This document shows, piece by piece, positions 16,641-41,351 of a stretch of DNA of 64,000 nucleotides. Made by a program: the position numbers and the translations under genes. The DNA comes from Spinacia oleracea (Eukaryota > Streptophyta > Magnoliopsida > Caryophyllales > Amaranthaceae), in NCBI RefSeq assembly GCF_020520425.1, contig NC_079487.1:107046141-107110140 (forward strand), read 5' to 3'. Numbering within the stretch: position 1 is the first letter of the stretch; the number at the start of each line of letters is the position of its first letter. The notes under the pieces are model-generated. The model was not told the origin of the DNA. It did not search any database and was given only the letters and a program-made list of their open reading frames with translations.

Positions 16641-19600
16641 ATGGCGGTTGACGATCTCCAAACAAAATTATACCGTGAACTCTGCAATAATAGCAATGAC
16701 GCGGTCATTGAGCTTTGCCGTAAGACTGTAGAGGGTCCATTGCATTATTGCACCATACATAATTCAACAGTGCTACATTTAGCATGTTACTCCAAAAAGT
16801 TTGAGTTAGCAAATAAGCTTTTTGATAATTTGCCTGATAATCTTCTCAGCATCCTACCTGAGCGAATGAATGCTTGGGGAGACACCATACTCCATGACGC
16901 ATCCACCTCCAACAAAGGGCTTGATTTGGCAAGAAAGCTATTGCAGAAAGTCCCTGAATTGCTACTAGCGCGCAACAAATCGGGTGAGTCTTCTGTCTTC
17001 CGAGCTACTCGTTATGGCAGGAGAAAGATCTTTGAGTTCCTTGCCGAAGAGGTGGATAAATTCTGTGACTCAGACTCAAACAAAGAGTTTGACCACCTCT
17101 ACTTCTTTCAGAGAGATGACAATACTACCATTCTTCACATGGCTATCCTTACAAGAAACTTTGGTGAGTTTTTTCATTTCTCATCAAGAAATCACAACTG
17201 TAATCTGATTTTTGGTATCATTCACTATTGACTAGCGATATTTCATTGTATATTGAAAATAATAATCAAGACTATATGCTAAGAGACTGTTTAACTTGTA
17301 ATTTACAGATATGGCGCTTATGATAGCAAGAAAATATCCTCATCTTTGTGGTATACGAGCTCAAAATAAGAGGACTGCTCTTCAAATACTTGCTTGTACT
17401 CCAGCAGCATTCAAAAGTGGAAAGAAATTTGGGCTCGTAAAGAAACTTCTTTACTCAAGTATGTATTATGTGGCTTTTATCTTTACATTTGATTTTTTTG
17501 ATTAAGGCTTTGTATATTGAGCTTTTGGGAACATCAATAATAACTACCTTTATGATTATTACTTACAACTCGAGCATTAAAATTTTATGCCAAACAAGAC
17601 CGAATGCTCTCTTCTTCTCATTTGGTAAGTTTTAGAAGATATATTGGATTGATTAAAGAAAGACGTGAACATAAAACTTATGGTTATCATACTTCGTACA
17701 AGTATAAATTTACACGTACGTACAAGTGACAGATTTCTTTTATCAGGTGTTTCAATTGATGAACAATCCAGTACCGAAGAAATGAGCATAATTCTGAAAG
17801 TCGTGGCATTCATATTAAGCATCAGTAAGTAAAACCTGATGAATATGTAGGTTTATGAAAGATTACATATCTTTGTTGCATAGAGTCATTGTTGACTTTT
17901 TAATTTATGGATATAAAAGGTAAATCTTGCTGGACATTGCCCATGATAGAAGAAGTCAAAGAGGTGAAGAAGGGGCACAAGGATGCACTAAATCTAGCCA
18001 AGATTTTAATCCAATACGATACTTCTTGGATGGACACACACGAGCCACGTGCTGAGGTTACTCCCGTTATAATGGGCGTTATTCCTATAATTAGTGATGA
18101 GTCTAGAGAAGAGGATATGACATTAATGGAGAGTTTATACCAAGAAGATGATGATGATTATGACATAGAGAGCAGAGAGAAAATTTATAGAGGTGATATT
18201 TATGACAATGATGAAGCTCCATTGCTGCTGGCAGCTAGGAAAGGGTGTATCGAGATTGTGAAAGAGATATTGAACATGTTTCCACAGGCTGTGAACTATC
18301 TAAATCATGATCAAGAGAATGTGTTACATGTAGCCATCAAAAGTCGCAACTTGGAAATTTTCAAGCTTGTTGAACAACGAGCTAACCTTCATAGAGGTTT
18401 ATTAGGAGCTGTTGATAACAAAAACAACTCCATTCTCCACATGGTTGGATGCCCAAGGAAAGTTCTTCCGGGTACTAAGATGAGAAGTCCGGTGCTACAG
18501 TTGTCTGATGACTTGCTTTTGTTGGAGGTATGAATTACCATTTACCTTCAATTGCTTAAATGCTTCATTGTTTTATCACATGTAAGTAACATTTGTGCGG
18601 CTAGTCGTACTGAAGTATGTTATTTCTGTGAGACAGTTGGGTTTGAGACGACTTAGCTTGTTAGATTTTTAAGATGTGGTATGTTAATTACATTTTTTAG
18701 TGATAGAGAATATATGCAAGTATATATACTCCTCATAGGTTTAGGATATAAAGTATTTCACTATTTTGTACGAAATATCTGGCCATAGTACTATGCATTA
18801 TCAGGATTGGGCAGTGTCGTGGAGAAAACGTCGCCCATTTCAGTCCTAGTCATCGGTGACCCATACTCATAGTTCTGGAGAGATATGATGTGTAGGCCGG
18901 CTGAACCTGTCGCATAAGGCGCTTCTTGGCCTGTGGATGGGCAGCTCCTGCAGTCGGATGCGGGCATGGTGCAGTGGCCCTGGCCCATGGTTCTGGCTGC
19001 CAAAGTGGGCTGGGGCCTGCTATTGTTGAGGGCCTAAATTTCCGCTGTGTTGGGCCAGTTGTTGACACACACCACGTCCTAGCTTTGAATTACATCTTTG
19101 AGTTTTTGGTTGTCTGTGTATGTTACTATGCTGAATTGTAGGGTTATATCTGCAGCACTTAGAAAGCATTTGTCCAAGTTACTTGGTGAACCACCGCAAC
19201 GATCAGATGATGACCGCAGATGAACTGTTTGCCAAGAACAATGAAAGTCATCGTATCGAGGCCAAAGATTGGCTAAAGCGCACTGCAGAACACAACACAG
19301 TGGTTATCATTCTCATAGCCACAGTTGCCTTTGCTGCTGCTTACACAATACCAGGAGGTCCAAATCAAGACACGGGCTACCCACTCCTCATTGGGCTGCC
19401 TTTCTTCCTAGTTTTCACCGTTACAGATGTTCTTTCACTTGGTTTCGCTTTGACAGCAATAGTCGTTTTCCTGGCTATACTGACGTCATCTTATCAGCTG
19501 AAAGACTTCCGAAGATCTCTTCCACAAAAGCTGTTGCTGGGTTTTACACTTCTGTTCCTATCAGTGACAATGATGATGGTGGCATTTGCAGCAACTATTC

Positions 19601-19803
19601 TTCTAATGGTAAATAAAAAAGAGAGATGGACAAAGATAACACTTTATATTGTTGCTTTCTTCCCAATATGTATATTTATGCTATCTTATATCCCTCTTTA
19701 CATAAAACTTGTTAAAACTCTGAATTACTGGATTAAGAAGCTTGGTGAGTCTCTTCCTAGGCTTGCATGCCCTTTGAGGCCTGCACGTCGAGCACTGGAA
19801 TAA
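16641..19803 (+). CDS. Ankyrin-repeat protein with PGG domain (ACD6/ITN1-like family)
   Basis: Five exons join in frame: 16641-17163, 17309-17458, 17747-17824, 17920-18527 and 19156-19803. They give 668 aa, and all introns have GT/AG ends. I chose the ATG at 16641 because it has A at -3 and G at +4; an in-frame ATG lies 6 bp upstream. The N-terminal half has ankyrin-type repeats (STVLHLACYSKKFELA, DTILHDAS, TTILHMAI, APLLLAARKG, ENVLHVAIKSRNLEI). The last exon has the PGG domain: an EAKDWLKRTAEHN lead, a first hydrophobic helix, then P519-G520-G521, followed by three more membrane helices. Family members are membrane proteins linked to defence or salt signalling. The exact role here is not known. 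A stretch of acidic residues (EDDDDYDIES) lies in exon 4. Confidence 0.9.
18800..19075 (-). mobile_element. GC-rich insert within intron 4 of the ankyrin gene, possible retroelement scrap
   Basis: This block is much richer in G and C than the rest of the intron. On the minus strand it reads as a proline/alanine-rich peptide (PHPTAGAAHPQAKK-like, QPAYTSYL) resembling the linker between copia gag and protease. No protease active site or ends could be found, so the assignment is tentative. Confidence 0.3.
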
Positions 19804-20476: not shown

Positions 20477-20634
20477 CTCTTTTTTGTGATTTCAAGCACC
20501 AATTCTTAAATGGACTTGGTCCACAATAAATTCAACAACTTCTTCCTAATTTATTTTGACAAATTATTAGGATTATTATGAAAAAATATATCAAATTAGT
20601 GTCGTTGATACATGTTGTGCTTGAATAATGTGAT

Positions 20635-20900
20635 TTTAAGTCACAATCCGCTTTTAAAAACATAGGGTTACTATGCTTCAAAAGATGGTTACTATGTTTG
20701 AGAATTTTGGTGTTTAATTTATTATAGTTACTATACGAACAATAAAGGTCACTATGAATGTAAAAAGGGTGCTAGAGAAAACTATTGATTTTGGGTCCAC
20801 ATTAATATTATTGTGGACCAAGTCCATGCAAGAATAATCCGATTTCAAGTCACAATTTGCTTTGAAAAACATATGGTTACTATGCCTAAGAATTTTGGTG
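20635..20900. repeat. Tandem ~200-bp duplication, first copy plus start of the second
   Basis: The first copy is about 20635-20820. The second begins near 20826 and is interrupted after GAATTTTGGTG at 20890-20900. Its remainder appears at 37135-37565. Shared phrases include GGTTACTATG, TTTAATTTATTATAGTTACTA and AGAGAAAACTATTGATTTTGG. The first copy is therefore the pre-insertion (empty) state of the second. Confidence 0.8.
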
Positions 20901-21004
20901 TTTTTTTTTTTTTTTTGACAACACAAGAGAAAGCAACTAGATCCCTTTTCTAGTTGAAGTTGCCAGGTTATGGGCCTTGGTAACACAGCTTCCAGCGCGT
21001 TTTC
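20901..21004 (-). pseudogene. 3' end of a truncated LINE (RNase H tail and poly-A), left part
   Basis: The minus strand reads NALEAVLPRPITWQLQL and then a run of A (T on plus at 20901-20916), as expected of the 3' end of a LINE. It continues the RNase H frame found at 36966-37134. Element A sits between the two halves. Three bases (TTC on plus) are found on both sides. Confidence 0.7.
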
Positions 21005-21078
21005 TGTCAGGCGGCCTGACGGCCACGCGCCTGTCAGTCCGCTGACTCCCTCACGCGCGCGTGGGCTTCACGCGCCAC

Positions 21079-21085
21079 ATAAATA
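21079..21085 (+). promoter_or_regulatory. Candidate TATA box of the element A transposase
   Basis: ATAAATA lies 172 bp before the ATG at 21251, followed by a CT-rich leader (TTCCTCC repeats at 21112-21140), which suits a plant 5' leader. It lies about 75 bp inside the left end, so the terminal region would act as promoter, as in MuDR. Confidence 0.45.
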
Positions 21086-21250
21086 CGAAACAACGCTTTT
21101 CTTTCTCTCTCTTCCTCCTTCCTCCTTCCTCCTTCCTCCTTCTTCCTTCCTTCTTCACAACAGCGACAACCTTTCTCAAACCCTAATCTAATTCGCGAAA
21201 TTATTCAGCTTGCTCCGCCGCAATCGCTGCCAACAACTTTCAGATCCGAC

Positions 21251-24200
21251 ATGGGCGACGGCGGCTATGAGCAATTTCAACCACCAATACCGATATTTCC
21301 GCCACAATCACCGCCGACAAATTTCAGATCAGACATGGCCGACGGCTTTCAACCACCACCACCATTATTTTCGCCACAATTTCAACAACCAACACAGATG
21401 TTTCCGCCACAATTTCAACCACCGAGTTTTCAACCTCGCCACCTTCAACATTCTCCTCGATTTTTAACACCACCGAATTTTCAACCTCGCCACCTTCAAC
21501 ATCCTCGATTTCTACCACCACCGATTTTTCAACCTCGCGACCGTCATCCTCCTCCTCGTTTTCAACCTCCTGCGCGATTTGATAACCCTAACCAAAGCAA
21601 CCTTCATCCTCCTCCTCGATTTCAACCTCCTGCCCGTTTTGATAACCATTATCAAAGCGATCTTCATCCTCCTTATCGATTTGATAACCCTAATCAAAGG
21701 GCTTTTACAACATTGCAGCAAGTAACTACTGAAACAAGTTCTGGAACAAAGGAAAACACATCTGAAACAAGTTCTGCAACAACAGGAGAAACAACATCAG
21801 CTTATTTTTCAGGTTTTAAAATTAATTTAATGAATATAGTTAACTAATTGATTACTTGTCGTAACTAATTAGATTGTGCAATTAACTAAGCGGCTAAAAA
21901 ACTAAACAAATTGGTTAACTAATTGCTTTGAAAGAATCACTAACTGGTAAAAATAGTTAACTAATTGGATAATAAACTAAATAATATATAAAGGAACTTA
22001 ACTAATTAATATCAATACTAAACTAATTTTTTTTAAAGCTACTTTTCAAATTTCATTTTTCACTAAGTTAATCATTACCATCATTTAGGTAACCTTTTCC
22101 ACCAAATAGTTAACTTTTTGAAGCAACTAGTTAACCTTTTCCACCAAATAGTTAACTTTTTGAAGCAATTAGTTAACTTTTATCATCAATTAACTTTTTG
22201 AAGCAACTAGTTAACCTTTTCCACCAAATAGTTAACTTTTTGAAGCAATTAGTTAACTTTTATCATCAAATAGTTAACTTTTATCATCAATTAGTTAACT
22301 TTTATCATCAATTAGTTAACTTGTACCATCAATTAGTTAAGTTGTTCCCTTAATTAGTTAACTTGTACCATCAATTAGTTAAGTTGTTCCCTTAATTAGT
22401 TAACTTTTATCATCAATTAGTTAACTTGTTCTCTCAATTAGTTCAATTGGTTAACTAATTTCCTGAATTATGTAACTAATTAGTTTCTTTTGTTAATTAT
22501 TACTTTTGTTAATTTTACAGGTTCAAAAGATATTTGGAACGATTTAACAGAGGATGATATTAGAGGACCTTTGACTGGATATACTGGCACTGTAGATGAA
22601 CTACATGAACTTTATGACAAACATTCAATACTTCTTGGATTTTCAATAAGAAAAAACACATTAAGGAGAGATAAAAAAACGGGAGAGATAAAGGAAAGAT
22701 ACTTTTGTTGTTCAAAGGAAGGAAAGAGAAAGGAAAACACAAAGAACACAAAGAAAGAAGAAGCAACTGTATCAAGTGAGAGCAAACAGAAAGAGCAGTC
22801 AAAGAACGCAAGGCAGCAAAACCTTACTAGAACAGGGTGCAACGCATCTATACGATTGAAGTTACAAAAGGATGGAAAGTTTATAGTCTTTCATCATGTT
22901 ATAGAACACAATCATGCCTTAACAAGAGAGTCACTGCAAAACTTTCAAAGGTACAAAACAAAATACAAGTAATTAGTTAACCATTAAAGAAATTTAGTTA
23001 GGCTTTGACATTAATTACTTAAGCGTTTAAATAATTTTGTTTTAATAATAAACTAGATAAAACAGTTACTTACCTTTTTCCATCAATTACTTAACTTTTT
23101 TCATAAATTAGTTAACCTTTTCCATGCATTAGTTAACTTTTTAAAACATTTAGTTAATGTTTTGCATCAATTAGTTTACTTTTTCAATCAATTAGTTACG
23201 TTTTTGCATGAATTAGGTAACTTTTATTTTAATAATATATTAGTTATTTACCTTTTACAACAAATAGTTAACTTTTTGCATATATTAGTTAACTTTTTGC
23301 ATATATTAGTTAACTTTTTACAACAATTAGTTAACGTTTTGCATCATTTCCAGATCACAAAGAAAAATTGATGAAGAAAAGGGAAAAGTAATTGAAGGAC
23401 TCACACTATCAGGAATAACACCAGCAGATTCCTTAGATATATGTGTAATGAAGCTGGCGACGCAAGGGTCGTTGGACACACATTAGTTGACCACATGAAT
23501 TTCACAAGTAGATTGAAAATGAAAAGACTAGAAGGAAAAGATACACAAGCAGTTGTGAACATGTTAATTAAGAGAGGAGAAGAAGATCCAAACTTTTATT
23601 TTCGAGTAAAGGTGAACGAGGCAAACCAAGTAATAAGCAAGTTTTGGAGGGATGGAATGATGCAAGAAGATTATGACATATATGGTGATGTCTGTGTCTT
23701 TGACACAACTTTCAGAACAAACAAATACAATTTAGTTTGTGCGCCATTTGTAGGTGTCAACAACCATTGGAGTAATGTGATGTTTGGTTGTGCTTTTATT
23801 GCTGATGAGAAGACACACACTTTTGTGTGGCTATTGGAAACATTTCTGGACTCTATGGGAGGCAAAGCACCTATAACTATCTTTACAGATCAAGATCAAG
23901 CAATGGCAAATGCTATTGAACAAGTAAGAGTGTATTAACTATTTGGGTTTTATAGTTAATTAATTGCTAAAAATTGTTAACTATTTGCTACTGGTCTTTA
24001 ACTAATGAGTTGAAAAGTTTAACTAAATTGATATCCATTCATCAGTTACTTTTTCCATCAATTAGTTATCCTATTACATACATTAGTTAACTTTTTGAAT
24101 CAATTAGTTAACTTTTGCAATGAATTAGATAAGTTTCTGCATGAACTAGTTAACTTTTGTTTTAAAAATATATTAGTTACCTTTTTGCATGAATTAGTTA

Positions 24201-26615
24201 ACTTTTTGCATGAATTAGTTAACTTTTTGCATCATTTTCAGATTCCTAACTAATACAGAATTCTGTTCTGACTTAACTATATAGTTTAAATTCTTAACTA
24301 ATACATCATTCATCAAAAAAATTGCAGGTATTTCCTAATACAAGACATAGATTATGCTTATGGCACTTACAAAAGAATGCTGTGTCAAGATTTGGAGACT
24401 TAAAAGCTGACAATACATTCAAAGACACATTCAAGAAGTGCTTATATCGTTGTTACAATGAAGAAGAATTTGAAACCACTTGGTTTGACATGATTACTAA
24501 GTATAACCTTCAAGATCATGATTGGTTTACAAATCTCTATACAATAAAAGAAAAATGGTGTACAACTTTGAACAAAGATTTTTTCTCAGCTGGAATATTG
24601 TCTTCACAAAGGTAAATGCTTAAATAAAAGAAGTCCACTAATTTTTTTAATGCTATTCTAATTGCTCAGAATAATTCACTAATTGCTATAAATACTTCAC
24701 TAATTACTATGAATACTTCACTAATTGCTTTGAATACTTCACAAAGTTTAACTAATTGTTTCATCTACTTAACTAATTCCTTTGCCTGCTTAACTAATTA
24801 ATCAGAAAGATTAACTAATTAAACTAAATGTTTAACTAAATGTTTCACCTTCTTAACTAGTTCCTTTGTTTGCTTAACTAATTCCTGTACCTGCTTAACT
24901 AATTAAATAAAATGTTTAACTAATTCAATCTTGTTACACAGGAGTGAGAGCACTAATAATGCTATTGGATTTAAAGGGAACAAATCAAATTCACTAACAG
25001 AATTCTTTCACATTTTTTGAGCAACAGTGGATCGTTGAAGATATCAAGAAGATCAAAATGAATATGATTGTGGAAATGCTTTGCCTAAATCTGATTTTCC
25101 AATGGTCGGAATGATAAAACATGCGGCAAATGTTTACACACTTACATTGTTTAGAGATTTTGAAAAAGAATTCAAGTATGCAATGGGTTGCATCTCAAAT
25201 GTCAACTACATCAATGGAAATTTCTTTGGTTACAAAGTGCAACATGAATCTCGGCCTGAACATACTGCCCATTATGTAGCATTTGATCCAACAACAAATT
25301 CCATTAAATGCACTTGTAGGAACTTCGAAGAATCAGGTTAGTTAATGCTCTTAACTAATTGCATTTTTACATACACTATCAATTAGTGAACTTTTTCTAT
25401 CAATTAGTGAACTTTTTCTATCAATTAGTTAGCTTTTTCAATGAATTAGTTATACTATTAAGTTACCTAGTTTTGTATTCACTTCAATTAGTTTGTTGTA
25501 CAATTAGTTAACTTTATTCATCAATTAGTTTACTTGTACCATCTATTAATTAATTTTTTCATCAATTAGTTAACTTTTTCTAACAATTAGTGAACTTTTA
25601 CTATCAATTAGTTAGCATTTTCCATGAATTAGTTATACTATTAACGTACCTAGTTTTGTATTCACTTCAGTTAGTTTGTTGTACAATTAGTTAACTTTAT
25701 TCATCAATTAGTTTACTTGTACCATCTACTAATTAATTTTTTCATCACTTAGTTAACTTTTTCTATCAATTAGTGAACTTTTTCTATCTATTAGTTAGCC
25801 TTTTTCATGAATTAGTTATACTATTAAGGTACCTAGTTTTTTATTCACTTCAGTTAGTTTGTTGTACAATTAGTTAACTTTATTCATCAATTAGTTAACT
25901 TTTTCTAACAATTAGTGAACTTTTACTATCAATTAGTTAACTTTTTTCACCAATTAGTTAATATTTGGATGTCACAATATGCAGGATGGCTATGTTTCCA
26001 TGCAATACGAGTTCTACATATACATTCTATTGTCAACATTTCAGAGCAATACATTTCAAAAAGGTGGACAAAGTTTGCAAAAAGTGAAGTATGGAAAAGA
26101 ATGGAACATAGAGAAGAAAATGGAACAGAAAAGAGAAAAATTACTCCATGGCGTTATGAGATGGCAAGAAATTTGTACAACTTGGTTATTAAATGTCAAG
26201 GGAGTGATGCAGCTAAAAAGGTTTTTAATAACTATTATTTAACTAATACATAACAATAAATACTAAATACTTCAAGAGTCTAACTAGTTTGCTTTAAATC
26301 TTAACTAATAGGTGCTTAAAGAGGCTTATGCTCATGCTAACGAAAGCATAAATAAGGTTCTAGAAAAAGAAAAGGCAGCAGAAAAGGAGGCAGCACAAAA
26401 GGCACAAGACGATGCTGAAGCACAACAAACCACAATCAACATAGCACCGTCTACATCATCATCATCATCAAATGCACCAAAATAATAGTTGAAAATCCAC
26501 CACTAGTGAAGACAAAAGGAAGAAGTAAAAGAAAAAAAGGATTCTTTGAGATAAGGACATCGTCAACAACACCTACAGAATTTGGAACTTTTACACCAAA
26601 AGAACAACTTTTTTA
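21251..26615 (+). pseudogene. FAR1/MULE-type transposase of element A, broken
   Basis: Exons by GT/AG and frame are 21251-21812, 22521-22950, 23354-23923, 24328-24611, 24942-25336, 25985-26220 and 26312-26615. Order: a Pro/Gln/Phe-rich N-terminus (PRFQPPARFDN repeats); a FAR1-type DNA-binding domain with TRTGCNA and HNHALT; the MULE core with FDTTFRTNKYN, FTDQDQAMANA and HRLCLWHLQKN; a SWIM finger split by an intron (CTC...CFH); and a basic C-terminus (VKTKGRSKRKKG). Defects: a 1-nt loss near 23434 (before MCNEAGDAR), a frame change near 25017, a TGA where Trp is expected near 25036, and a 1-nt shift in an A-run near 26480. The alternative of a real gene with unseen micro-exons is unlikely given four separate breaks. 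Confidence 0.85.
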
Positions 26616-28380
26616 GTGACATTGGATTGAATTTAGTGTTTATCAAATTAGTTAACTTGTACCAGCAATTAGTTAACTTGTTCCCTCAATTAGTTAACTT
26701 CTTCCCTCAATTATTTAATATTGTTAACCTTACAATACATTAGTTAACGTTTTCCATCAATTAGTTAACTTTTTTCAGCAATTAATTAGTTTACCTTTTG
26801 CATCCATTAAGCTTTTAACAATAATTAGTTAACTTTTTCCATCTATTAGTTAACTTGTCCCATAAATTAGTTATCTTTTTCATCAATTAGTTATTGTTTT
26901 AACTTTTTAACAACTTTTTCTATCAAGTAGTTAATCAATTTAGGTAACTTTTTACTGCAATTAGTTAACTTTTTACTACAATTAGTTAACTTTTTACAGC
27001 AATTAGTTAACTTTTTATAGCAATTAGTTAACTTCTTCCCTCAATTATTTAATATTGTTAACCTTACAATGCATTAGTTAACCTTTTCCATCAATTAGTT
27101 AACTTTTTCCATCAATTAGTTAACTTTTTTCATCAATTAGTTAACTTTTTTCATTAATTAGTTTACCTTTTGCATCCATTAAGCTTTTAACAATAATTAG
27201 TTAGCTTTTTCCATCTATTAGTTAACTTGTTCCCTCAATTAGTTAACTTTTTTCATCAATTAGTTAATTTGTTCCCTCAATTAGTTAACTAATTGATTTC
27301 ATTTTCAAAAGTCAAGTTACTGTAATTATTGTTGACGTCACAATATGCAGGATGACTATGTTTAACTAATATTGTTAACCTAAAATTAGTTAACTTTTTG
27401 CATCAATTAGTTGAACTTACCACTCTTTAGTTAACCTTTACCATCAATTAGTTAACCTTTTCCACCAAATAGTTAACTTTTTGCAGCAATTAGTTAACTA
27501 TTTTCATTAATAAGTTTTAACTAATTGAATTTGATATTTCACTAATTGAATTTAATGCTTAATAATATATTGAATTAGATTGACTGACTTATGAAATATA
27601 CCAAGTAAATAATTCAAAATAAGCTTCCTCAATTAGTTAACGTTTTCCCTCAAATAGTTACCTTTTTGTAAAAATTAGTTAACTTTTATCATCAATTAGT
27701 TACATTTTTCTTAAAATTAGTTAACTTTTATCATCAATAAGTTAACTTGTACCATCTATTAATTAACTTGTTCCCTCAATTAGTTAACTTTTTCATCAAT
27801 TAGTTAAATTTTTCCATCAATTAGTTAACTTGTTCCCTCAATTAGTTTATAGTATTATTAGTTAACTTTTGCTACCAATTAGTTAACTTTTTCTATCAAT
27901 TAGTGAACTTTTTCTATCAATTGGTTAGCCTTTTCCATGAATTAGTTATTCTATTAAGGTACCTAGTTTTGTATTCACTTCAGTTAGTTTGTTGTACGAT
28001 TAGTTAACTTTTTCTATCAATTAGTGAACTTTTTCTATGAATTAGTTAGCCTTTTCCATGAATTAGTTATTCTATTAAGGCACCTAGTTTTGTATTCACT
28101 TCAGTTAGTTTGTTGTACAATTAGTTAACTTTTTTCATTAATTAGTGAACTTGTACCATCAATTAGTTAACTTGTTCCCTTAATAAGTTAACAAATTGAT
28201 TTTATTTTCAAAAGTTTAACTAATATTGTTAACCTAAAAGTAGTCAACTTTTTGCATCAATTAGTTAACCTTTACAATCTATAAGTTAACCTTTTCCATC
28301 AATTAGTTAATTTTTTGCATCAATTAGTTAACTAATTGAATTTGATATTTAACTAATTGAATTTAATACTTATGAAATAT
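21990..28380 (+). repeat. Element A left array: TTAGTTAAC-TTTTT motif, plus orientation
   Basis: The introns of the transposase gene and the 3' spacer are built from degenerate units of the form CAATTAGTTAACTTTTTCCAT (about 20-24 bp). Variants such as TTGTACCAT or TTCCCTCAAT replace the T run. Larger duplicated blocks of 200-300 bp can be seen at 25380-25900 and 27880-28140. Exons are free of the motif. Confidence 0.95.
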
Positions 28381-28586
28381 ATCAAGTAAATAATTCAAAA
28401 TAAGCTCCTACTAAATATATATATACCAAAAGAGCTACTTGCCCAAAATATTCAAAGATTAAATTTCTGTTTTAAAGCACCTATTCTCAAAATATATCAA
28501 CCAAACAAAGCAGTTAATAAAAATATTCACATATAAATTGTTTACTAAATAACAACTAAAAACAACCTGATAGATAAGTTTACTGA

Positions 28587-31500
28587 TTAACTGGAAGGTG
28601 GCTTATGATGAACAACTTTTGCTCTCTTTTGTTTCGGTGCAACAGAAGCTTTGTTTTGATCCATATCAGAGAATGGCACTGCTTCTACTGTTGGCACTGC
28701 TTCAGCTGCTACCACTGGTTCGTTGTTCTTGGCAATTCGCCTTGATGACTTGTATGTTCTCAAAGGAGCATTGTCATTTCCTTGTGGCTTCTCTTGGGCT
28801 GCTGCTTTTCTTTTTGCAATTGTTTCTAACCTTTTCCTTGTAGTTTTAGCCTTTTTTAAATCAGCCTGCTGTTTCAACTTTGCAGCCTCTTCTTCTTCTA
28901 GCTTCTTCTTTGCTTCTGCTTCTTTTTTCTGTCTTTCTTCTTCTTCTTTCTTTTTCTTTCGGCGATCACGAACAGCATGGGAAATACCAACTTTAATCAT
29001 GTTGAATGATTCCATTTCCTCCAGCACATCAGCCCGAATTTCATTCATATCAGAAAGGACTAAGGTTGAACAAATCTTAGCCCGTAACATTGTCCTTGTA
29101 CCGCGCTAAAATAAAAACATAATATATAAGATGATGTATGTGTACTAAATACTGATTGTATGAAACAAAAAATAGGTTTATTAATAGATTAAAAAAGTTA
29201 ACTAGTTGCTGTAAAAAGTTCACTAATAAATTTAAAAGTTAACTAATTGCTGTTAAAAGTTAACTAATTGCAGTAAAAAGTTAACTAATTGTTGTAAAAA
29301 GTTAACTAATTGCTGTAAAAAGTTTACTAATTGCTGTAAAAAGTTAACTAATTGTTATAAAAAGTTAACTAATGGCTGTAAAAAGTTAACTTATTGCAGT
29401 AAAAAGTTAACTAATTGCTGTTAAAAGTTAACTAATTGCTATAAAAAGTTAACTAATTGCAGTAAAAAGTTAACTAATTGCAGTAAAAAGTTAACTAATT
29501 GTTGTAAAAAGTTAACTAATTGCTGTAAAAAGTTAACTAATTGCTGTAAAAAGTTAGCTAATTGTAGTAAAAAGTTAACTAATTGCAGTAAAAAGTTACC
29601 TAAATTGATTAACTACTTGATAGAAAAAGTTGTTAAAAAGTTAAAACAATAACTAATTGATGAAAAAGATAACTAATTGATGGGACAAGTTAACTAATAG
29701 ATGGAAAAAGTTAACTAATTATTGTTAAAAGCTTAATGGATGCAAAAGGTAAACTAATTAATGTAAAAAGTAAACTAACTGAAAAAAGGTTAACTATTTG
29801 AAGTAATAAGTTAACTAATTGAAGAAAAAGGTTACCTAATTCATGAAATACTTAATTTGAAACTATTGAAACTAGAAAAGATAAACTAATTGCTTGAAAA
29901 TCTTAACTAAAGTAGACTTACATAGGAAAGGTCCATGGGAATATTTTTGCCATTAAAGTACTGCATTGCTGTCATCAAAAAAATTCCGCAATCTACATGA
30001 TCAGGGTTATCTGATCTCCCAGCAAAGTCCAGAATTGACATTTCAAAATTTAAGCAATCAGCAGCAGCCGCATGGCCAATCTCTAGCAGAAACTGTGCAA
30101 ATGCTTCAATAAGCAATGACACCATTGCCATATAATCATCATGAATCTTCTTATTCCAAATTATGTTGTCAACATAGACAAGACTTCTTTGATTTATGTT
30201 GACAATCAACAGAGAGAGGTGTTCTTGGTAAATAATGGGAAAGAAAAACTGCAAATGAATCAAGGGAAAAAAGTAAGAAAAATCAAACTAAAATATATAA
30301 AAACTTAACTATTTAATATCACAAATTAACTATTACATATAAAGGCATAACTACCAAAATACCAACTTACCATTCCCACATTTTTCAGATTGAATCTGTG
30401 GTCATTGATTTGCACCCAATATTTCCAACTATTGATAAGTTCATCAATAATTTGATTTAGAGATTCAGCTGACTTCGTCTTAAGAGCACCTTCAAGCTTC
30501 CTCTGGCATAAGCAAAAAACCAAATTTAATTAGAAAACAGTATAAACAAATTAACTGAACTGAATACAAAACTAGGTACTTTCATGTGTAACTAATTGAT
30601 GGAAAAGGATAACTAATTTATGGAAAAAGTTAACTAGTTGATAGAAATAGTTAACTATTTGATTGCAAAAGTTAACTAATTGATAGCAAAAGTTAACTAA
30701 TTGATAGAAAAAGTTAACTAATTGTACAACAAACTAACTGAAATAAATACGAAACTAGGTAACTTAATAGTATAACTAATTCATGGAAAAGGCTAACTAA
30801 TTCATTGAAAAAGTTCACTAATTGATAAAAAAAGTTCACTAATTGATAGAAAATGTTAACTAATTGATAGAAAAAGTTTACTAAATGTACAACAAACTAC
30901 CTGAAATGAATACAAACCTAGGTACCTTAATAGAATAACTAATTCATGGGAAACTAATTGATAGAAAAAGTTCACTAATTGATAGAAAAAGTTAACTAAT
31001 TGATAGAAAAAGTTCACTAATTGATAGAAAAAGTTCACTAATTGATAGCAAAAATTAACTAATAATACCACAAACTAATTGAAATGAATACAAAACTAGT
31101 TACTTTACAGTGTAGGTAATTGATGGAAAAACTTAACTAATTGTTTGAAAAGGTTAACTAATTGTCAGAACAAGTTAACTAAATGATTTAAAAAGTTAAA
31201 AAGTTAACTACTTAATGGAAAATGTTAACTAATTGATGTAAAAAAATAAGTAACTCATTATTTAAACGATACAACATAAAAAAGTAAAGGACATTAATAA
31301 AAAAAATTACATAAAATAGAAACTAACCGTGTACTCAACACCAAAATAGAAATTGTTTTGTTCTTTATTCAACATGAACTGATTTTTGTTCAAGAGAATA
31401 GACCAAATCTCAACAATGTTGGATAAGATATATTCCTCAGGAATCAAACATTGCATTTCCTCCCTATTTATTTTGTGGAGCATCCCAAAAATAAAAACAT

Positions 31501-34500
31501 CAGCCCTGTTACACAAAAATTAAAACAAATAAATAAGGAAAATATTAAATTATGTAAAAATCTCAACTAAATGACATATATAGTTAACTAATTGTTAACT
31601 TACTGTTGATCAAGTGCCTCATCATCCAAGAAACAGAAGTCAATTACTTCTTTTTCCAGTCTCCTCAGACGACCGAGGGTCTTCGGAAATCTCTCCATTA
31701 ACTCAGATAAGCAGAAGACTTCTTCTGTAGCAGAACCAATGGGAAGACTGCTATAGAAACTCCTAGTTTCTCGTTCAGGTTCAGCATCTTGGGGAGCAAC
31801 ATTTCCAGAACCTTCAACACTTTTCTCAATTGGCCCTTTATCACCAGGTCCATTATCACCAGAACCCTTGTCAGCAGCACCAACATTCTCCTGAATTGGC
31901 CCCTTGTCAGCAGCACCATCAACAGCTTGAGAAGGAGCATTATCATCAACAACATTATTTTCATTTCTCAAGTGTTCAGCATAGGCAACAATTGAGTCAA
32001 TTATCTCCAAAAACACAGGATCACTGTATCCTGGACTGTCTGATAATTCTTGTCGCCGACTCTTTAACAAATTTATACGGTCCTTATGGAAACTGGACAC
32101 AACATATAAATCGCGACAATATATTCTCATTGCCAATTGCAACTCCTTCACACACAAAAAAAGAAAAATATTAAGAAAAGAAAACAACAGCAAAATAATT
32201 AACTAATTGAATTATCTAAACAATTATATAATTCATGGAAAAAGATAACTATTTGATGGAATACATTAACTAATTGCTGTATAAAGTTAACTAATTAAAG
32301 GAAAAGGTTAACTATTCGATGAAATAACTTAACTAATTGATGGAATGATGAAACCATTGGAAAAATTCATTAAAAAATAAGTTCACTTATAGAGAAAAAT
32401 AGTTAACTAATTGATGAAATAAGATAACTAATTGCTGAAATAGGTTAACTAATTCATAAAACAAGTAACACTTGGTTAACTACTTAATGGAAAAAGTTGA
32501 CTAATTGCTGTAAAAACTTAACTAATTTAAGCAAAAGGTTAACTATTGTGAGATAGGTTAACTAATTGAATAAAAAGGTTTACTAATTCATAAAAAAGGT
32601 TAACTAATGGATGGTACAAGTTAACTAATTGAATAAAAAGGTTTACTAATTCATAAAAAGGTTAACTAATTGATGGTACAGGTTAACTAATTGAATAAAA
32701 AGGTTTACTAATTCATAAAAAAAAGTTAACTAAATGCAAAATAGGAACTTCTTCACACAAAAAAAAAGATAACTAATTGATGAAATACATTAACTAATTG
32801 CTGTATAACGTTAACTAATTAAAGGAAAGGGTTAACTATTTGATGAAATAACTTAACTAATTGATGGAATGATGAAAGATTGGAAAAATTCATTAAAAAA
32901 TAAGTTAACTAATTGATGAAATAAGATACCTAATTGCTGAAATAGGTTAACTAATTCATAAAACAAGTAACACTTGGTTAACTAATTAATGGAAAAAGTT
33001 GACTAATTGCTGTAAAAGGTTAACTAATTTAGGCAAAAGGTTAACTATTGTAATAGGTTAACTAATTGAATAAAAAGGTTTACTAATTCATAAAAAAGGT
33101 TAACTAATTGATGGTTCAAGTTAACTAATTGAATAAAAAGGTTTACTAATTCATAAAAAGGTTAACTAATTGATGGTACAGGTTAACTAATTGAATAAAA
33201 AGGTTTACTAATTCATAACAAAAGTTAACTAATTGACAAAATAGGTTAACTATTAAAAAGATTCATTAAATATGAACAAAAATAAATATGAACATTATCA
33301 TGACTTACATCATCGCAGGTAGCTTGAATTTCAGCATCTGTTTGAGCACTTTCCGGAATTTGAAACTCAATAATCCTGCTTCGATCAGCTTGGGAATTAC
33401 CCGGTGCACCTTCCGAAGCTTTAGCAGAAGCAGCAGGAGCACCAGAAGCAGCACGAGCAGCAGAAGCAGAAGGAGCAGGAGAAGCAGAAGGAGCAGCAGA
33501 AGCTTCAGGAGCAGCAGAAGCTTCAGGAACCTCGAGTTTGATAGGGTTAAGACCCCCTAACAAATCAGCAAAAGTCTTAGACACGGGATAGCTGGTTATA
33601 TCAACCAAAGCTACCCCAAAACCCATCTTCTCTTCGGAAATCAGACGTTCAGTCACTTGTTCATCATTCCAATGTTGAACAAGTGGGATTTCCTTAGGGG
33701 GGACTACACCCTGAAATAACGATCTTTGGAGATAAATTATCTCCAAAAATAGAACACAACCACCAACCTTGTCATTTTTTACACTCGCTCTCCACCTCTC
33801 AACAGCAAACCCAAGCTGGTTTAACACGTATTTACACCAATTTTGTTTCACAATCTGTGAAACATCCTCAACAGCCTTCAAAACCTTGATGTCTAACAAC
33901 CGGTTAGACGTAGGAGCCAAAAATACACCTATAAAAACAATAAGATAATTACAGAAATCAATAAGATAATATGTTAACTAATTCATAAAAATAGTTCACT
34001 AATTAATGTAAAAAGTTAACTAAATGATGAAGAAAGTTAACTAAATGTAAAATAGGTTAAATGATTGATGAAAACAGTAACTAATGGATAAAAAAGGTAA
34101 ACTAATTATTAAAATGAACTAATTAATGAAAAAAGAAGAATAATTAATAAAAAAAAGGTAAACTAATTAATGTAAATAGTGAACTATATACTTGCTGTTA
34201 AAGGTAAATAACTTGAGCATGATTAATTTAGAAATTTTTACCTAAAACATATACCACAAAGGCACGTTTAAAATCATCTCCACATTCATCTGTTTTCAAA
34301 AAAGATTCCAACTCCGTCAAGGTGGGTGCCTGAACAGTTGGTTTCTTGTGGAACTTCTCATTCCATCTTTGAATCATTTCATGGTTGGCATCTCCTTCAA
34401 CCCGCTTTCTTGGCGTCTCTTGAACATCAAAATCCTTGTTCCATGGCAAGCCAAAGACGTCATAGACATCATAATCATATAACTGAACATTTTGTGTTTC

Positions 34501-35826
34501 TCCAAACTGGAGCATATGACCAACACAATTAAAATGTTGAAGCAGCCATGGAACAAGGCGTGTGTTGACTTCATGAAGTCGAACACTCAACAAACCACCA
34601 AAACCTATCTCTTTAATGGCTTTCACTTTGTTTTCATTCTTCTTTATAGAATTAAGAAGATTAATCAACGCCTCTGGTCTACAATTTAGTTTGTAACCCC
34701 TACACAAAACAAAAGAATTTAATTAATGAAAATATTTAACTAATTTCTTAAGAAGTTAACTAGTTGTAGAAAAAGGTTAACTATTTAATGAAATAGGTTA
34801 ACTAACTGCAAAAAACTTCACTATTCATGCAATAGGTTAACTAATTGATAAAATAGGTTAACTAATTAATGGAAAAAGTTAACTAATTGCAGTCAAAAGT
34901 TAACCAATTATTGACTTAACTAATTGCAGTCAAAGGTTAACTAATTAATGTAAAAGGTTAAATAATTAGTGAAAAAGTTAACTAATTAGTGGAAAGATTC
35001 TTTTTAAAAAAAGGTTAACTAATTACTGAAAAATATTTAACTAATTGTGTTTAAAGGTTAACTAATTATTTTAATTACATAACTACTTCATATAGGTAAA
35101 ATAATTTGTTTCAAAGCAAAAGTAATTAATTTAAAAATAAATAACAAATAGTCATACCTATCCAACTAATTAAACAGTGATAAATAACAGTTACAAAGAT
35201 AGGTTAACTAATTGAAGAAAAAGGTTAACTAACTGAAAAAAACTTCACTAATCATGCAATAGGTTAACTAATTGATGAAATAGGTTAACTAATTAATGGA
35301 AAAAGTTAACTATTTGCAGTCAAAAGTAAACTAATTATTGAGTTAACTAATTGCAGTCAAAAGTTAACTAATTAATGGAAAAGGTTAACTAATTAGTGGA
35401 AAAAGTTAACTAATTAGTGGAAAGATTCTTTTTAAAAAAGGTTAACTAATTACTGAAAAATATTTAACTAATTGCAGTCAAAAGTTAACTAAATTATGCA
35501 AAAAGTTCACTAAATGTAAAATAAGTTATGATAATTGCAAAATCAATTTTTAAATAGTCATACCTATCCAACTAATTAAACAGTGATAAATAACAGTTAC
35601 AAAGATAGGAGTTATACCTATCCAACTCTACAACTTCCCCACCATCTTCCGTATATTCTACTTTAATTTTCGACTTCTTTGGCCCCCTTCCAATTTTCCT
35701 CTCATCTGCACTCAGCTTTGGACTAGCTGGAATATCTTCAGTCGACCTTGAACTGCCTTCAACATCTTGACTCGACTTTCCAGCATCGTGATAATCAGAT
35801 GCTTTGTTTGCATTTTTTGACCTCAT
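28587..35826 (-). CDS. Ulp1-like cysteine protease (C48 family) of element A, intact frame
   Basis: Eight exons on the minus strand, all GT/AG, join without a stop into 994 aa: 35618-35826, 34242-34699, 33309-33928, 31604-32145, 31328-31505, 30371-30502, 29922-30248 and 28587-29105. The N-terminal region carries the IGFGGLL segment shared with element B's protease. An Ala/Ser/Pro-rich linker lies near residues 357-405. The catalytic domain has H723 (QEHLSLL), D740 (VYVDN) and C800 (HVDCGIF). The usual Gln six residues before the Cys is Asn here. The tail is Lys/Glu-rich with a likely coiled coil and nuclear signals. The family cleaves SUMO-type isopeptide bonds; the substrate of transposon versions is unknown. 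The ATG at 35826 begins the first open exon, and a 5'-leader intron seems likely. Confidence 0.85.
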
Positions 35827-36180
35827 TATGTGAACTGAAACTATAAATGAATGTAGTTCAATATATTGCAATGCGCAAATAAAAAGAATGTGTAATGAAC
35901 ATAAGCAGTATAAATAGCAATAAAAACAAAACAATTTCATTGTGTAACTAATTGATTTGAATGTTTCACTAACAGGTTAAAATAGTTAACTAATTGGATT
36001 ATGCAATTAACTAATTGGTCAAAAAAGTAAACTAATTGCTCAAGAAAGTTTGAAATTAAATAAATTAACTAATTCGTTTAATACTTGATTTATGAATGTC
36101 AGAATATGACTAATTGCTTTGAAAGAATAACTAATTGGTAAAAATAATTAACTAATTGATTAAAAAACTAATTATTTATC
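29195..36180 (-). repeat. Element A right array: same motif, minus orientation
   Basis: From about 29.2 kb the plus strand shows the complement, AAAAAGTTAACTAATTG, in the introns and 3' spacer of the protease gene. At 29205-29590 it forms a regular array of about 18 units, period 21 bp (GTTAACTAATTGCTGTAAAAA), 15 of which keep GTTAACTA exactly. Block duplications occur at 32210-32740 versus 32770-33235, and at 34760-35080 versus 35190-35500. Confidence 0.95.
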
Positions 36181-36841
36181 AGCGAACTTTTAATTGAACA
36201 AATTGAACAAAAACACCAAAACAAACTTCAAATTATGAACAAATTGAACAAAAAGAAGGAAAAAGGACAAGAAGCTTCAAAAATATTGTCGAAAATGAAG
36301 AACAACCAAAAGTATCACAAATCACAATTACAAAACCCTAAATCACAACCAAAACAGTAAGAAACAAAAACGAACTTCAAATGATAACAAAATTGAACAA
36401 AAAGAAGAAAAAATGACAACAAAACTTCAAAAATATTGTCGAAAATGAAGAACAACCGAAATTATCACAAATCACAATTACAAAACCCTAAATCAAAACC
36501 AAAAACAGTAAGAAACAAAACGAACATCAAATGATGACAAAATTGAACAAAAAGTAGATGAAAATAGAAAGAACTTACCAAAACTTGAAGTAAATCGGAA
36601 AATATCACAATCACACCTTCAAAACCCTAAATCGAACGAAAAAAAAGAGGATAAATCAGTAAGAACTACACACGAACAAAGAAAAACAAGTGAAAATGCA
36701 AAAACTTACAGAAATTGAAGAAATCGAAGAGAAGATCAAAGAGTAGAAGCTTTCTCTCTCCTGAAATGGAAGAACTCGGCGGTTTCTCTCTCTAAAAGTG
36801 AACAGTGATTTGAAAATGGGCAAAAACGTGGGAAAGAAAAC

Positions 36842-36849
36842 CTTTTATA
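36842..36849 (-). promoter_or_regulatory. Candidate TATA box of the element A protease gene
   Basis: The minus strand reads TATAAAAG here, close inside the right end. A CT/GA-rich leader follows, with a GT donor-like site (TTTCTGTAAG) near 36710 that could start a 5'-leader intron ending before the ATG at 35826. Confidence 0.5.
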
Positions 36850-36965
36850 CTAAACCCGAAAAAATAACCGTTTTCGACCCAATTCGGATTTGACCCGCGT
36901 CCTGACCCGAGTCACGACCCGCGTCACGACCCGCGTCACCCGTCTGACGCTGTCAGTCCGCCTTA

Positions 36966-37134
36966 TTCAATAATTTGTACACAGCTTCGGGGGACTTTTA
37001 CAACTTGACAGAAAGAAAATCTACTAACTATTACAATGAAATCTTTAACGATGCTCCGAATATCCGAGTGCGCGAGATCCAGGTCCAGGAGAGCTTTCAC
37101 CAAAAGAGACGAATCAGTTTTAAAAATTACTTTG
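36966..37134 (-). pseudogene. LINE RNase H fragment, right part
   Basis: The minus-strand frame reads VIFKTDSSLLVKALLD and later CQVVKVPRSCVQIIE. It matches the plant LINE RNase H region with the D of the TDS motif. It would continue as NALEAVLPRP on the other side of element A. The 5' side is truncated near 37134, as is usual for LINE insertions. Confidence 0.7.
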
Positions 37135-37565
37135 TTTAATTTATTATAGTTACTACTCCCTCCGTATTTATTTAAGGGATATACTTGCCTTTTTCGGCCG
37201 TATTTATTTAAGAGATACACTTGCCATTTTTAGTAACTTATCAACCCCACCATCTAATTAAATAATACATCTAATATACCCTATCACCCACCATCCTATT
37301 AAATAAATAATTTTATAAACCCACCCCACCCTCCACCCACCAAAATGACATGGTCCCCACATGTTTAATTATTAAAATATCTATCCAAACCCACTTGCTT
37401 TATTGTTTTATTTCATTTAATTATTTTTCTTAATACCCGTGCCCGACCAAGTGTATCTCTTAAAAAAATACGGAGGGAGTATATGAACAATAAAGGTCAC
37501 TATGAGTGTAAAAAATATGCTAGAGAAAACTATTGATTTTGGGACCACACTAATATTATTGTGTA
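37135..37565. repeat. Remainder of the second copy of the ~200-bp tandem duplication
   Basis: Apart from the Stowaway MITE, this segment matches 20713-20818 (TTTAATTTATTATAGTTACTA before the MITE and TGAACAATAAAGGTCACTATGA after it). It completes the duplicate begun at 20826. Confidence 0.8.
37156..37479. mobile_element. Stowaway MITE (324 bp)
   Basis: The ends are CTCCCTCCGTATTTATTTAAG and its complement, flanked by TA at 37154-37155 and 37480-37481. This is the classic Stowaway (Tc1/mariner) form. The first copy of the surrounding duplication (TTACTATACGAAC near 20727) lacks it, giving a true empty site. Confidence 0.95.
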
Positions 37566-37655
37566 CCAATCAGAATCTCATATATGCTCAGATAAGAATT
37601 TGCACCTACAAATTGCTTTTACACTATTTGAGCTATATGCTTTATGATATACATA

Positions 37656-37894
37656 CTTCTTCCGTTTTTATTTTATTATTCCATCATTTAATTTTACATT
37701 ATTCACGCACTCTCTTTATCATTTTCTTTTTTTGTAAGTTATACATAATGAATTATATATTACTGAGTGATCTTGTTAAATTAATATCCATATATTATTT
37801 TTAATATATCAATTTTTTTATAATTTTAACTAATATATAATTAGAGAGATTAATGGGTAAAGTTTTATATTTACAAGCATGAAAACTAAGGAAG
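37656..37894. mobile_element. Degenerate Stowaway-like MITE (239 bp)
   Basis: The ends are CTTCTTCCGTTTTT and AAAACTAAGGAAG, flanked by TA at 37654-37655 and 37895-37896. The homologous DNA at about 16050-16065 lacks it, which supports insertion. The interior is AT-rich with no coding potential. Confidence 0.7.
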
Positions 37895-38599: not shown

Positions 38600-41351
38600 A
38601 GTGATAATCTAACAAATTCATATAGTTTAAATGTTTCGTCAATTTCAATTAATTTTTTAATTTTTGTTGCTTAATTTTGAAATATTAAGGAAAATCGAGC
38701 ACATGCAAAGCGAGGAAGCTCAACACGCAATCGAATCTAGTGTCAATGCTCCTTCAACAGAAGAAAAAGCTACAAATACGTAAGGATTTCAATTTATTTG
38801 GAGTTTCAAATAAAGAAAATCGACTAAAATTGTTATTCTAAACATGTTCTAATGTTAAATTTATGTTCAAAATAAAGTTCTACAGTTAATTGTCATAATT
38901 TAAAGTTTTTATACCAGATCTGTTATTAAATATGAATGTTCTAATTTTTTCCGCATGTTCTAATAATATTAAGACATGTTTCAAAGTTTTTATGATGTTC
39001 AATACATCTTTTAAGCATGTTCTAATGTATGAATGATGTTCTGAGGAATGTTCTAAATTTAAAAGTCATGATTGAATGTTTTAATGATGGATCTGGTGGA
39101 AGATAAAGAATGTTCGAAAAAATTTCCATGTTCTAAAGATGTTAAGAATGTTCTAAAGTTATTCGAACATGTTTCATTGTTTTGGGCCAACATCTGCTTT
39201 ATAAAACAAAACTTTTAAATTTGGAGCATGTTCTAAAGGTTTTAATCATGAATTAATGTTTTAGAAAATATTCAAATTGGTAAATTAATGTTCAAAGCAT
39301 GTTCTAAGCATGTTCTAATTTCAAAAGATTGTTTTAAGGAAAGTTCTAAAGTTATCAGTCATAATTAAAAGGATATTATAAAAAAAAAAATTCCATGTTC
39401 TAAACATTTTAAGAATGTTCTTATGTCATTGCTACACATGTTCTAATAATATAAATACATTTTTTAATGTTTTCATCCTATTCTAAACATACATTAATGT
39501 TCAATCCATGTTTTAAGCATGTTATAATGTAAGAATGTTGTTCTAAGGCAAGTTCTAAAATTAAAACTAATTATTAAATATTATGAGATAGATATATTGT
39601 ACAAAATTTACCATGTTCTAAACATTTTAAGAATGTTCTTATGTCATTGCAACACATGTTCTAATAATAATAATACATGTTTGAATGTTTTCATCCTATT
39701 CTAAACATACATTAATGTTCAATCCATGTTTTAAGCATGTTCTAATGTAAGAATGTTTTTCTAAGGCAAGTTCTTAAATTAAAACTAACTATTAAATATT
39801 ATGAGATAGATATATTGTACAAAAATTACCATGTTCTAAAAAACTCTAAAAGTGTTCTAAAAAATATTACCATGTTCTAAACATTCCAACATGTTTCATT
39901 GCCTTAATATATGATCTAATCTTATAAAATGGATATTTTAAAATGTTTGAGCATGTTCTAAATTTTTTTAACATTATCTAACTGTGGGATTTATGTAAAT
40001 ATTCTAATATTTTTTCAGCAAGGAGGATGACATACACTACGAAAAGGTTGATAATGCAGTTGTTTCAAGTCTTCATACAAATCCTACAGAAGAAAATATT
40101 TCAGAAACGTAAGAAAATAAAAGTTTATTGAGTGACAAAATAAATACTGTATGTTCTAAATGTTATTTAAAGCATGTTTTAATGTTATAATGCAAGTTTT
40201 AAAGTCATGCGTAAAATTTTCAAATATTATCATGCATGTTCTAAAACATATTTAATTGAAAACAGAGAAAAAACAGAAGAGGATGTTGCCAAAACAGAGG
40301 AGGAATGTGACATTATAAGGTAATTTTCCAGAATTTAAATTATAATATATTTGCAAATATTTAGAACATAAGAAAAATCTTAAGAACATGTCTTCTGCAC
40401 TTTGATTTAGTATACTTATTTTCTGATCATTTAATATAATTAAATACAATTTATTTATAGGAATGAGAATATGCAAAGAATAGACGGTGAACAAGAGACC
40501 GTGTTGCAAACAACTTCAACTGAATCAACAATTTCGATTTAAAAGTAAGTTTCATAATTTTAGTTCAATATTGAATACATAATATGTTCTTTAATAAAAT
40601 ATTAAATGTTCTTACCGCATTTTCTTATGTTTGAATTTTTTTTACCAATATGATAGGAGTGTTCCTGAAATTGAATACAATAGAGTCCCTCAAGCGAAAG
40701 AAAGGATTAAACATACCATGAAATTTACTACGGAAGAGGTACAAACCACTTCTGAAGTAATTCCAATCAAGAGGTAATAATCCTAATTAAATTTAACAAT
40801 AGGAACAAATAAATTCCAATTTAAAAACATTTACTAACAAATGTTTAAAACTACAACTAAACAGGAAAGAAAAAGAAAGGATCATAGTGAGGATTAAAAA
40901 TCCACAAAAGGAAAAAATAAATCCTAGGTATGCTGCCTATGTTCTAAACGTGTGTCTCTTATGTTCTAATTGTTAATTACTTGGAACTTGTTTAAATGTT
41001 CATACATTATAATAAAAAATTATGTTCTGATATTTGGAATAAATTATAATCATTTAGGGGTCAACCACCAAAAAAAGTTACATTCAAAATTAAAGGTGAT
41101 GTTCATGGAGTGAAGGCGGCACCTATATTGGACAATGATCAAAGGTAATTATTTTTTTATCAAAATATTAACACATTCAAAATACTTGAAAACCAGAACT
41201 AATTTAGTTTGATTTTAAATTTAAATCAAATGAATCAATGTTATTTTTATCTGTAATGTATGTTCTAATATTCAACACTTATGTTCTAATATAATACACT
41301 TATGTTCTAATATCATGGCCTTATGTTTTAATTATTCTATCCTATGGTATA

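Follow-up and report, generated by a model that had tools for sequence, protein, structure and literature searches.

In this study, we describe a Mutator-like element (MULE) in a 64,000-nucleotide stretch of the spinach genome (Spinacia oleracea, assembly GCF_020520425.1, contig NC_079487.1, positions 107,046,141 to 107,110,140 of the forward strand; hereafter the window, whose own numbering is used throughout). The element carries a transposase gene and a convergent Ulp1/C48-like gene, and its introns and central spacer are filled with arrays of the 21-bp unit AATTAGTTAACTTTTT, which point in opposite directions in the two halves. In diverged relatives from the same genome the arrays of the transposase half mostly run the other way, and their orientation is not tied to transcription. 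Most probably the arrays serve as docking sites for an anti-silencing protein of the element's own, in a family in which the motif appears to have been largely replaced and mirrored through inverted copies. A preliminary description of this DNA, made from its letters alone, held that the repeat lies always in the sense of its host gene. The original observation is mostly real; the claim of a sense lock fails.

Repeat arrays of the window element

The element has no terminal inverted repeats (TIRs). Its main parts are the following; transposase exon borders were set by eye on AG acceptors and GT donors.

20993-36978, no strand given: whole element, 15,986 bp, a non-TIR Mutator-like transposon; most alignments of copies share these ends
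21251-26485, plus strand: transposase gene, 7 modelled exons (FAR1 1.5e-19, MULE transposase 4e-20)
21251-21812, 22521-22950, 23354-23923, 24328-24611, 24942-25336, 25985-26220 and 26312-26485, plus strand: transposase exons
28587-35826, minus strand: Ulp1/C48-like gene, 8 exons, convergent with the transposase gene; candidate VANC/KIU-like protein

The preliminary description had the size right (16 kb), and the start and end it gave, 21990 and 36180, both fall inside the element. It also placed the motif on the plus strand to the left and on the minus strand to the right, and this is borne out. The exact 14-mer TTAGTTAACTTTTT occurs in the window 24 times on the plus and 19 times on the minus strand, every time within the element, with a plus:minus ratio of 24:0 in 20993-28586 and 0:19 in 28587-36978; resampling the element sequence 200 times under a first-order Markov model gives a mean of 0.01. 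When up to two mismatches are allowed, there are 102 plus and 7 minus matches in the bins from 21501 to 28500 and 1 plus and 122 minus matches in those from 29001 to 36500. The genome searched (894 Mb in 242 contigs, six of them very large) holds 1,596 occurrences of the 14-mer and 130 of a reversed control. The period of about 21 bp was confirmed as well, since 122 of 180 successive gaps below 130 bp between AATTAGT cores are exact multiples of 21. Sense units of the window read CAATTAGTTAACTTTTT, and the form with a T-run, TTAACTTTT, is found in gene sense only, 42:0 and 35:0 in the two halves.

All 15 modelled exons are free of the AATTAGT core (0/0), in agreement with the earlier statement that exons are clean. 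Relative to the gene, the core counts 84 sense to 26 antisense in the left half and 111 to 4 in the right half. The segments, with their AATTAGT counts given as sense/antisense, are these:

21813-22060, minus strand: first part of transposase intron 1, 0/6
22061-22520, plus strand: second part of transposase intron 1, mostly sense, 11/2 (whole intron 1, 11/8)
22951-23353, plus strand: transposase intron 2, sense array, 5/0
23924-24327, plus strand: transposase intron 3, sense array, 4/0
24612-24941, minus strand: transposase intron 4, antisense throughout, 0/11; its TTAAG-type unit resembles the one commonest in the relatives
25337-25984, plus strand: transposase intron 5, mostly sense, 20/2, with a compound repeat of 183 bp
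26486-28345, plus strand: transposase 3' spacer, sense array, 44/4
29106-35617, minus strand: Ulp1-like introns 1 to 7, 22/4, 5/0, 34/0, 1/0, 20/0, 0/0 and 20/0
35827-36200, minus strand: 5' region of the Ulp1-like gene, sense units, 9/0 (count taken over 35827-37130)

Transposase intron 6 (0/0) and the transposase 5' flank at 20600-21250 (0/0) hold no core. Read in gene sense, the introns have a T content of 0.38 to 0.53. Internal non-coding DNA (within 21813-28586 and 29106-35617) has 1.7 CG per kb, an observed/expected ratio of 0.12; the exons have 17.9 per kb (0.48) and the rest of the window 22.8 (0.72). Both 5' ends are CG-rich, with ratios of 1.43 and 1.22.

Close copies share the pattern

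About 30 copies with 95 to 100% exon identity were found among the matches scored. For exon 3, 30 loci were fetched of the best 40 scored (window included, 96 to 100% identity). Intron 2 is sense at all 30 loci and intron 3 at all 29 measured; in intron 4 the units are antisense in all 28 close copies in which both bounding exons were found, again counting the window. Upstream of exon 2 both orientations are met across the close copies, antisense units prevailing in L024 to L026 (1/13, 1/11 and 1/13). Nine copies were examined there for the T-run unit: L027, L028 and L030 bear 7 or 8 antisense and 3 sense, and L021 has one antisense. Array size varies from copy to copy.

Near-exact 14-mers are mostly gene-sense in 59 of 60 loci around two query exons, a set that counts the window twice (L001, L032). 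Around the central exon, where 12 loci were fetched of the best 40 matches scored, all 12 (the window and 11 other copies, 98 to 100% exon identity) change strand between the two 3' ends, exactly where the switch had been placed before. The sole exception among the 60 loci, L050, appears to have lost the middle of the element: at C4:13620138-13625222 (L004, L050) the gene markers begin just 4.5 kb apart, apparently through a large internal deletion. At C4:51565192-51573584 the last Ulp1-like exon is matched twice on one strand at a distance of 8 kb, which may mean that copies are nested or duplicated.

Orientation is mostly reversed in diverged relatives

Stretches of six diverged copies, picked among the exon matches in the same genome, were compared with the window (L073 and L074, 9 to 10 kb each). 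Five of the six have antisense units in their transposase introns; the sixth and closest, L077, is mixed (intron 2, 7/4; intron 3, 0/2; flank after exon 4, 0/11). As far as fetched, the units run in one direction through both genes in L073 (59:3) and in L074 (35:4). In L073, transposase introns 1 to 6 read 0/4, 0/5, 1/4, 0/6, 1/8 and 1/1 and the DNA past the last exon 0/31 in transposase sense, and Ulp1-like introns 5 to 7 read 7/0, 0/0 and 3/0 in the sense of their own gene. The transposase side counts 2/16 in L075 and 0/10 in L076, and the whole locus of L078 has 1 sense and 19 antisense.

The switch at the gene boundary, on which the preliminary description had staked its reading, is thus present in the close copies and missing from L073 and L074. 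The rule that the repeat always follows the sense of its host gene is broken in the window already, by intron 4 (0/11) and by intron 1 up to 22060 (0/6), and after reading the relatives we rejected gene-sense locking as a rule. Since orientation is mostly reversed in the relatives, transcription does not dictate the direction of the repeat, and the proposal that it spreads through transcripts is not needed.

A tree of exon 3 with 35 rows (without L074), drawn with a midpoint root for display only and no outgroup, joins the 30 sense copies in one group (100/100), with L077 adjoining and four antisense rows opposite. Because the tree confines the sense state to one group, the mirror pattern appears to be of recent origin. 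Most simply read, the tree would make antisense the older state and have the mirror arise once, recently in the family.

Probable replacement of the motif, and inverted blocks

The relatives keep AATTAGTTAA but vary outside it; units were selected by AATTAGT, so only the TTAA part of this core is a free test of conservation. In the stretches fetched, GTTAACTTT is absent from all six relatives, and the T-run form, present 77 times in the window element, is found 0 times. The commonest reading of the relatives' units is AATTAGTTAAG, which is also that of intron 4, and these units have no T-run. Exact counts of AATTAGTTAAC to AATTAGTTAAG are 110:13 in the window element and 18:54 in the six relatives. 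Within intron 4, AATTAGTTAAG occurs 0 times in sense and 4 times in antisense, and AATTAGTTAAC does not occur. The motif accordingly differs between related families, as it does in VANDALs with VANC, and the antisense array of intron 4 would be a relic of the older unit.

The two halves of the element share a block in inverted orientation:

26781-27052, plus strand: inverted-block member, 272 nt, 97% alike to 29491-29762
29491-29762, minus strand: its partner, in intron 7 of the Ulp1-like gene

In L065 an inverted block of 492 nt, 88.6% alike, links the spacer side with the stretch containing intron 7. Blocks of this kind, we infer, probably carried the new unit from one half to the other. The preliminary description had offered an origin of the repeat in the terminal regions followed by copying inward. 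Copying between parts of the element finds some support in this other form, and a terminal origin finds none: there is no TIR, and the left 5' flank (20600-21250) has no AATTAGT against 9 in the right 5' region.

Termini and classification

Most copy alignments start at query position 131-135 of 20860-21250 and stop at query position 779-783 of 36200-37700, which sets the two bounds. The element is flanked by a direct repeat:

20983-20992, no strand: left target-site duplication ACACAGCTTC, 10 bp
36979-36988, no strand: right target-site duplication ACACAGCTTC, 10 bp

The element begins with CAGCGCGTTTTC and finishes with AATAATTTGT, and 10 other copies end similarly. The termini of 10 further copies were fetched, and all 10 have direct repeats of 9 to 11 bp around these similar ends, taken as the longest exact repeat, to which chance may add 1-2 bases; with the window, all 11 copies examined have target duplications of this length. 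A TIR was sought by comparing the end regions read inward, and the best same-sense match was 9 bp and not terminal. A MULE transposase domain (PF10551, 4e-20; FAR1, 1.5e-19) stands together with a target duplication within the 8 to 11 bp of MULEs, and MULEs that lack TIRs and make duplications of 8 to 11 bp are on record in the part of the literature consulted (PMC6446971). On this anatomy, we would file the element as a young, previously undescribed family within the VANDAL/KI-MULE kind of transposon.

Immediately to its left, at 20525-20840, lies a high-copy repeat of about 316 bp, with 39 other copies at 85 to 97% identity (best 40 of 1,037 candidates). Near the insertion, at 17904-19803, open frames resemble, by eye only, an ankyrin-repeat membrane protein. 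A 218-bp tandem repeat rich in ATGTTCTAA is located outside the element at 39386-39840.

The two genes

The transposase reading frame of the window copy looks disrupted, because the exon 3 match is 543 bases long and modelled exon 5 has no open frame; 29 of 31 other full-span matches to exon 3 at 95% identity or more have 544 bases. The Ulp1-like gene is intact: its 8 exons have GT and AG borders and, once joined, give a frame of 994 amino acids without internal stop. The protein matches Peptidase_C48 (PF02902) at residues 689-811 with an E-value of 3.4e-7, and the gene lies in reverse orientation to the transposase, which is the arrangement of KI-MULEs and KIU-carrying elements. Searched against PDB sequences, the protein gave four matches, all weak and unconvincing (best E 0.0055).

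Compared with L073, the identities of Ulp1-like exons U5-U8 are 82.6, 76.9, 76.9 and 70.3% (four of the eight U exons lie in the stretch fetched). Transposase exons T2-T6 have 87.2 to 89.4%, T7 has 82.5%, and T1 has 81% at best over a partial match. Judged by these exons, the Ulp1-like gene appears to change faster than most of the transposase.

A 9/18-bp repeat at 33423-33521, within Ulp1-like exon 3, gives rise to an Ala/Ser/Pro-rich peptide repeat, and a 150-bp tandem repeat of 2.3 copies lies in the 5' region of the gene at 36217-36558. For VANC proteins, variable regions bearing repeats have been reported (PMC5735166, in the part consulted).

Comparison with known systems

The MuDR element of maize likewise has two convergent genes, for the transposase and a second protein. 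It differs in its long TIRs and in its mudrB product, which is not a C48 protein, and it is not known to have intron arrays.

Closer precedents are found among VANDALs and KI-MULEs, so that the earlier statement that no described Mutator-like element has this organisation does not hold (PMC2528002, PMC13317346 and PMC5735166, as far as their texts were consulted, which applies to all comparisons drawn from them and from PMC10398659 below). In Arabidopsis VANDALs, VANC-type proteins bind arrayed non-coding motifs and reverse silencing (PMC5735166), and VANC and RNA-directed DNA methylation act on common non-coding regions (PMC10398659). VANDAL21 (Hiun), which carries VANC21, is like the spinach element a Mutator-like transposon with degenerate TIRs (PMC5735166; PMC10398659). 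Its short motif forms tandem arrays of one orientation in introns and in intergenic and terminal non-coding DNA, and not in exons; dense arrays of this kind fill the non-coding DNA of the spinach element too, with both orientations in intron 1. Motif types differ between VANDAL21 subfamilies, arrays turn over, and VANC is more variable than the transposase (PMC5735166). Unlike the spinach element, with AATTAGTTAAC and two genes seen, VANDAL21 has the motif YAGTATTAY and the genes VANA, VANB and VANC. The spinach protein also departs from it in its weak DUF1985 and in the presence of a C48 domain, and arrays mirrored by half are not mentioned in the portions of the VANDAL21 descriptions consulted. 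To the eye alone, the core TAGTTAAC resembles both YAGTATTAY and AGTTGTAC; no weight is given to this likeness.

In KI-MULEs (KAONASHI), which are non-TIR MULEs, the ULP protease gene is in reverse orientation to mudrA (PMC2528002), and the KIU-carrying VANDALs are said in a review to recognise non-coding motifs in their own kind (PMC13317346). These elements are described with three coding genes, and the comparison with them is one of layout, not of motif sequence. ULP-containing MULEs of grapevine, melon and rice also have a ULP sequence alongside the transposase (PMC2528002, PMC13317346). Those of grapevine have it in both orientations, with or without TIRs, and one non-TIR family makes target duplications of 9 nt, within the 9 to 11 bp of the spinach copies. 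Motif arrays do not figure in these descriptions so far as consulted, the word 'tandem' being absent from the text of PMC2528002. A text search of the literature found no paper on intronic tandem repeats of spinach Mutator-like elements.

Discussion

We read the arrays as probable docking sites because the layout matches that of VANDAL and KIU elements and because the second gene diverges faster than most of the transposase. A sequence-specific anti-silencing protein, most likely the VANC/KIU-like product of the convergent Ulp1/C48-type gene, would dock densely on the arrays. Bound along the introns and spacers, it would strip silencing marks and so keep the element active. Arrays would grow by tandem duplication of the 21-bp unit, and each would therefore tend to a single direction. 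The motif would shift between families together with the protein. In the present family, a unit bearing TTAAC and a T-run would have largely displaced an older, mostly TTAAG-type unit, and would have entered the transposase half as inverted copies of the arrays in the other half, which would yield the mirror image with its switch between the 3' ends. The suggestion of the preliminary description that the repeat helps to avoid silencing is thereby kept as the best-fitting guess, with a DNA-binding protein, not RNA, as the presumed agent.

Several observations weigh against this reading. DUF1985, the hallmark of VANC, scores 11.9 bits in the 994-aa protein (E 0.23), below the cut-off of 35.1 bits; a profile built on 12 of this genome's own DUF1985 genes reaches 9.9 bits, best at residues 213-259 (E 3.9e-5 in a single comparison); hhalign gives a probability of 11%; and a genome scan with PF09331 lists no match at the element locus among the best 150 of 893 candidates. 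A VANB-like third gene was not recognised among stop-to-stop frames of at least 90 amino acids, which short exons could escape. TTAAG also occurs in the window and TTAAC in the relatives, so the change of motif is one of proportion and not exclusive, and the antisense part of intron 1, with TTAAC 3 versus TTAAG 1, misfits a clean division into old and new. A BLAST comparison of one half with the other yields 531 inverted and 46 direct matches (0 and 7 in L073), counts that largely restate the mirrored motif and add no proof of copying. Near-identical as they are, the close copies have their pattern in common by descent and were set aside as independent proof of it. A firm assignment of the protein to DUF1985 was not reached, given the sub-threshold score, the low hhalign probability and the lack of a listed PF09331 match. 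DUF1985 matches are numerous in the genome, with E-values up to 0.0024 among the 150 scored of 893 candidates.

The arrays might instead be selfish, functionless tandem DNA, slippage and unequal exchange growing the 21-bp unit wherever coding constraint is absent. Clean exons, copy-to-copy differences in array size and units that vary outside the core all fit such neutral growth. We hold this to be unlikely, as the AATTAGTTAA core, within its limited free test, and the 21-bp phase persist between families with changed spacer sequence, as most non-coding segments are filled by arrays, and as VANDAL21, of like anatomy, has been shown to be protein-bound (PMC5735166, in the part consulted).

The reversal of orientation could itself be adaptive. 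The T-run unit is strand-asymmetric as RNA; mainly gene-sense copies of it would be kept, re-oriented intron by intron for compatibility with splicing, and sister families with more strand-balanced units would be free to run antisense. We think this quite unlikely. A direct role in RNA, in which U-rich sense units help the splicing of long introns so that the unit is kept only in gene sense, appears improbable. The exclusively gene-sense T-run form of the window and its T-rich introns speak for it. It is weakened by intron 4, antisense in every close copy measured, by the antisense introns of five relatives and the mixed state of the sixth, and by the T-run units that L027, L028 and L030 carry in antisense before exon 2; moreover, T content differs little between introns 2 to 5 of L073, which are antisense (0.39 to 0.45), and their counterparts in the window (0.39 to 0.47).

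Passive escape from silencing, by a nearly CG-free unit that leaves little to keep methylated, agrees with the CG-poor internal non-coding DNA and is nevertheless very improbable, since the scarcity follows from an AT-rich unit, other cytosines remain (CHG 9.7 per kb) and CG-free filler needs no single conserved core at fixed phase. Scarcity of CG may add to the docking-site effect that we favour.

With this element the layout of VANDAL and KIU elements, a reversed ULP gene combined with non-coding motif arrays, extends to a young family that has sister families in the same genome. Co-evolution of protein and motif can be tested directly through the proteins and arrays of these sister families. 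Antisense TTAAG arrays and sense TTAAC/T-run arrays stand together in one element, as though the exchange of one motif for another had been caught half-way, and the inverted blocks point to a route by which a new motif may come to pervade an entire element.

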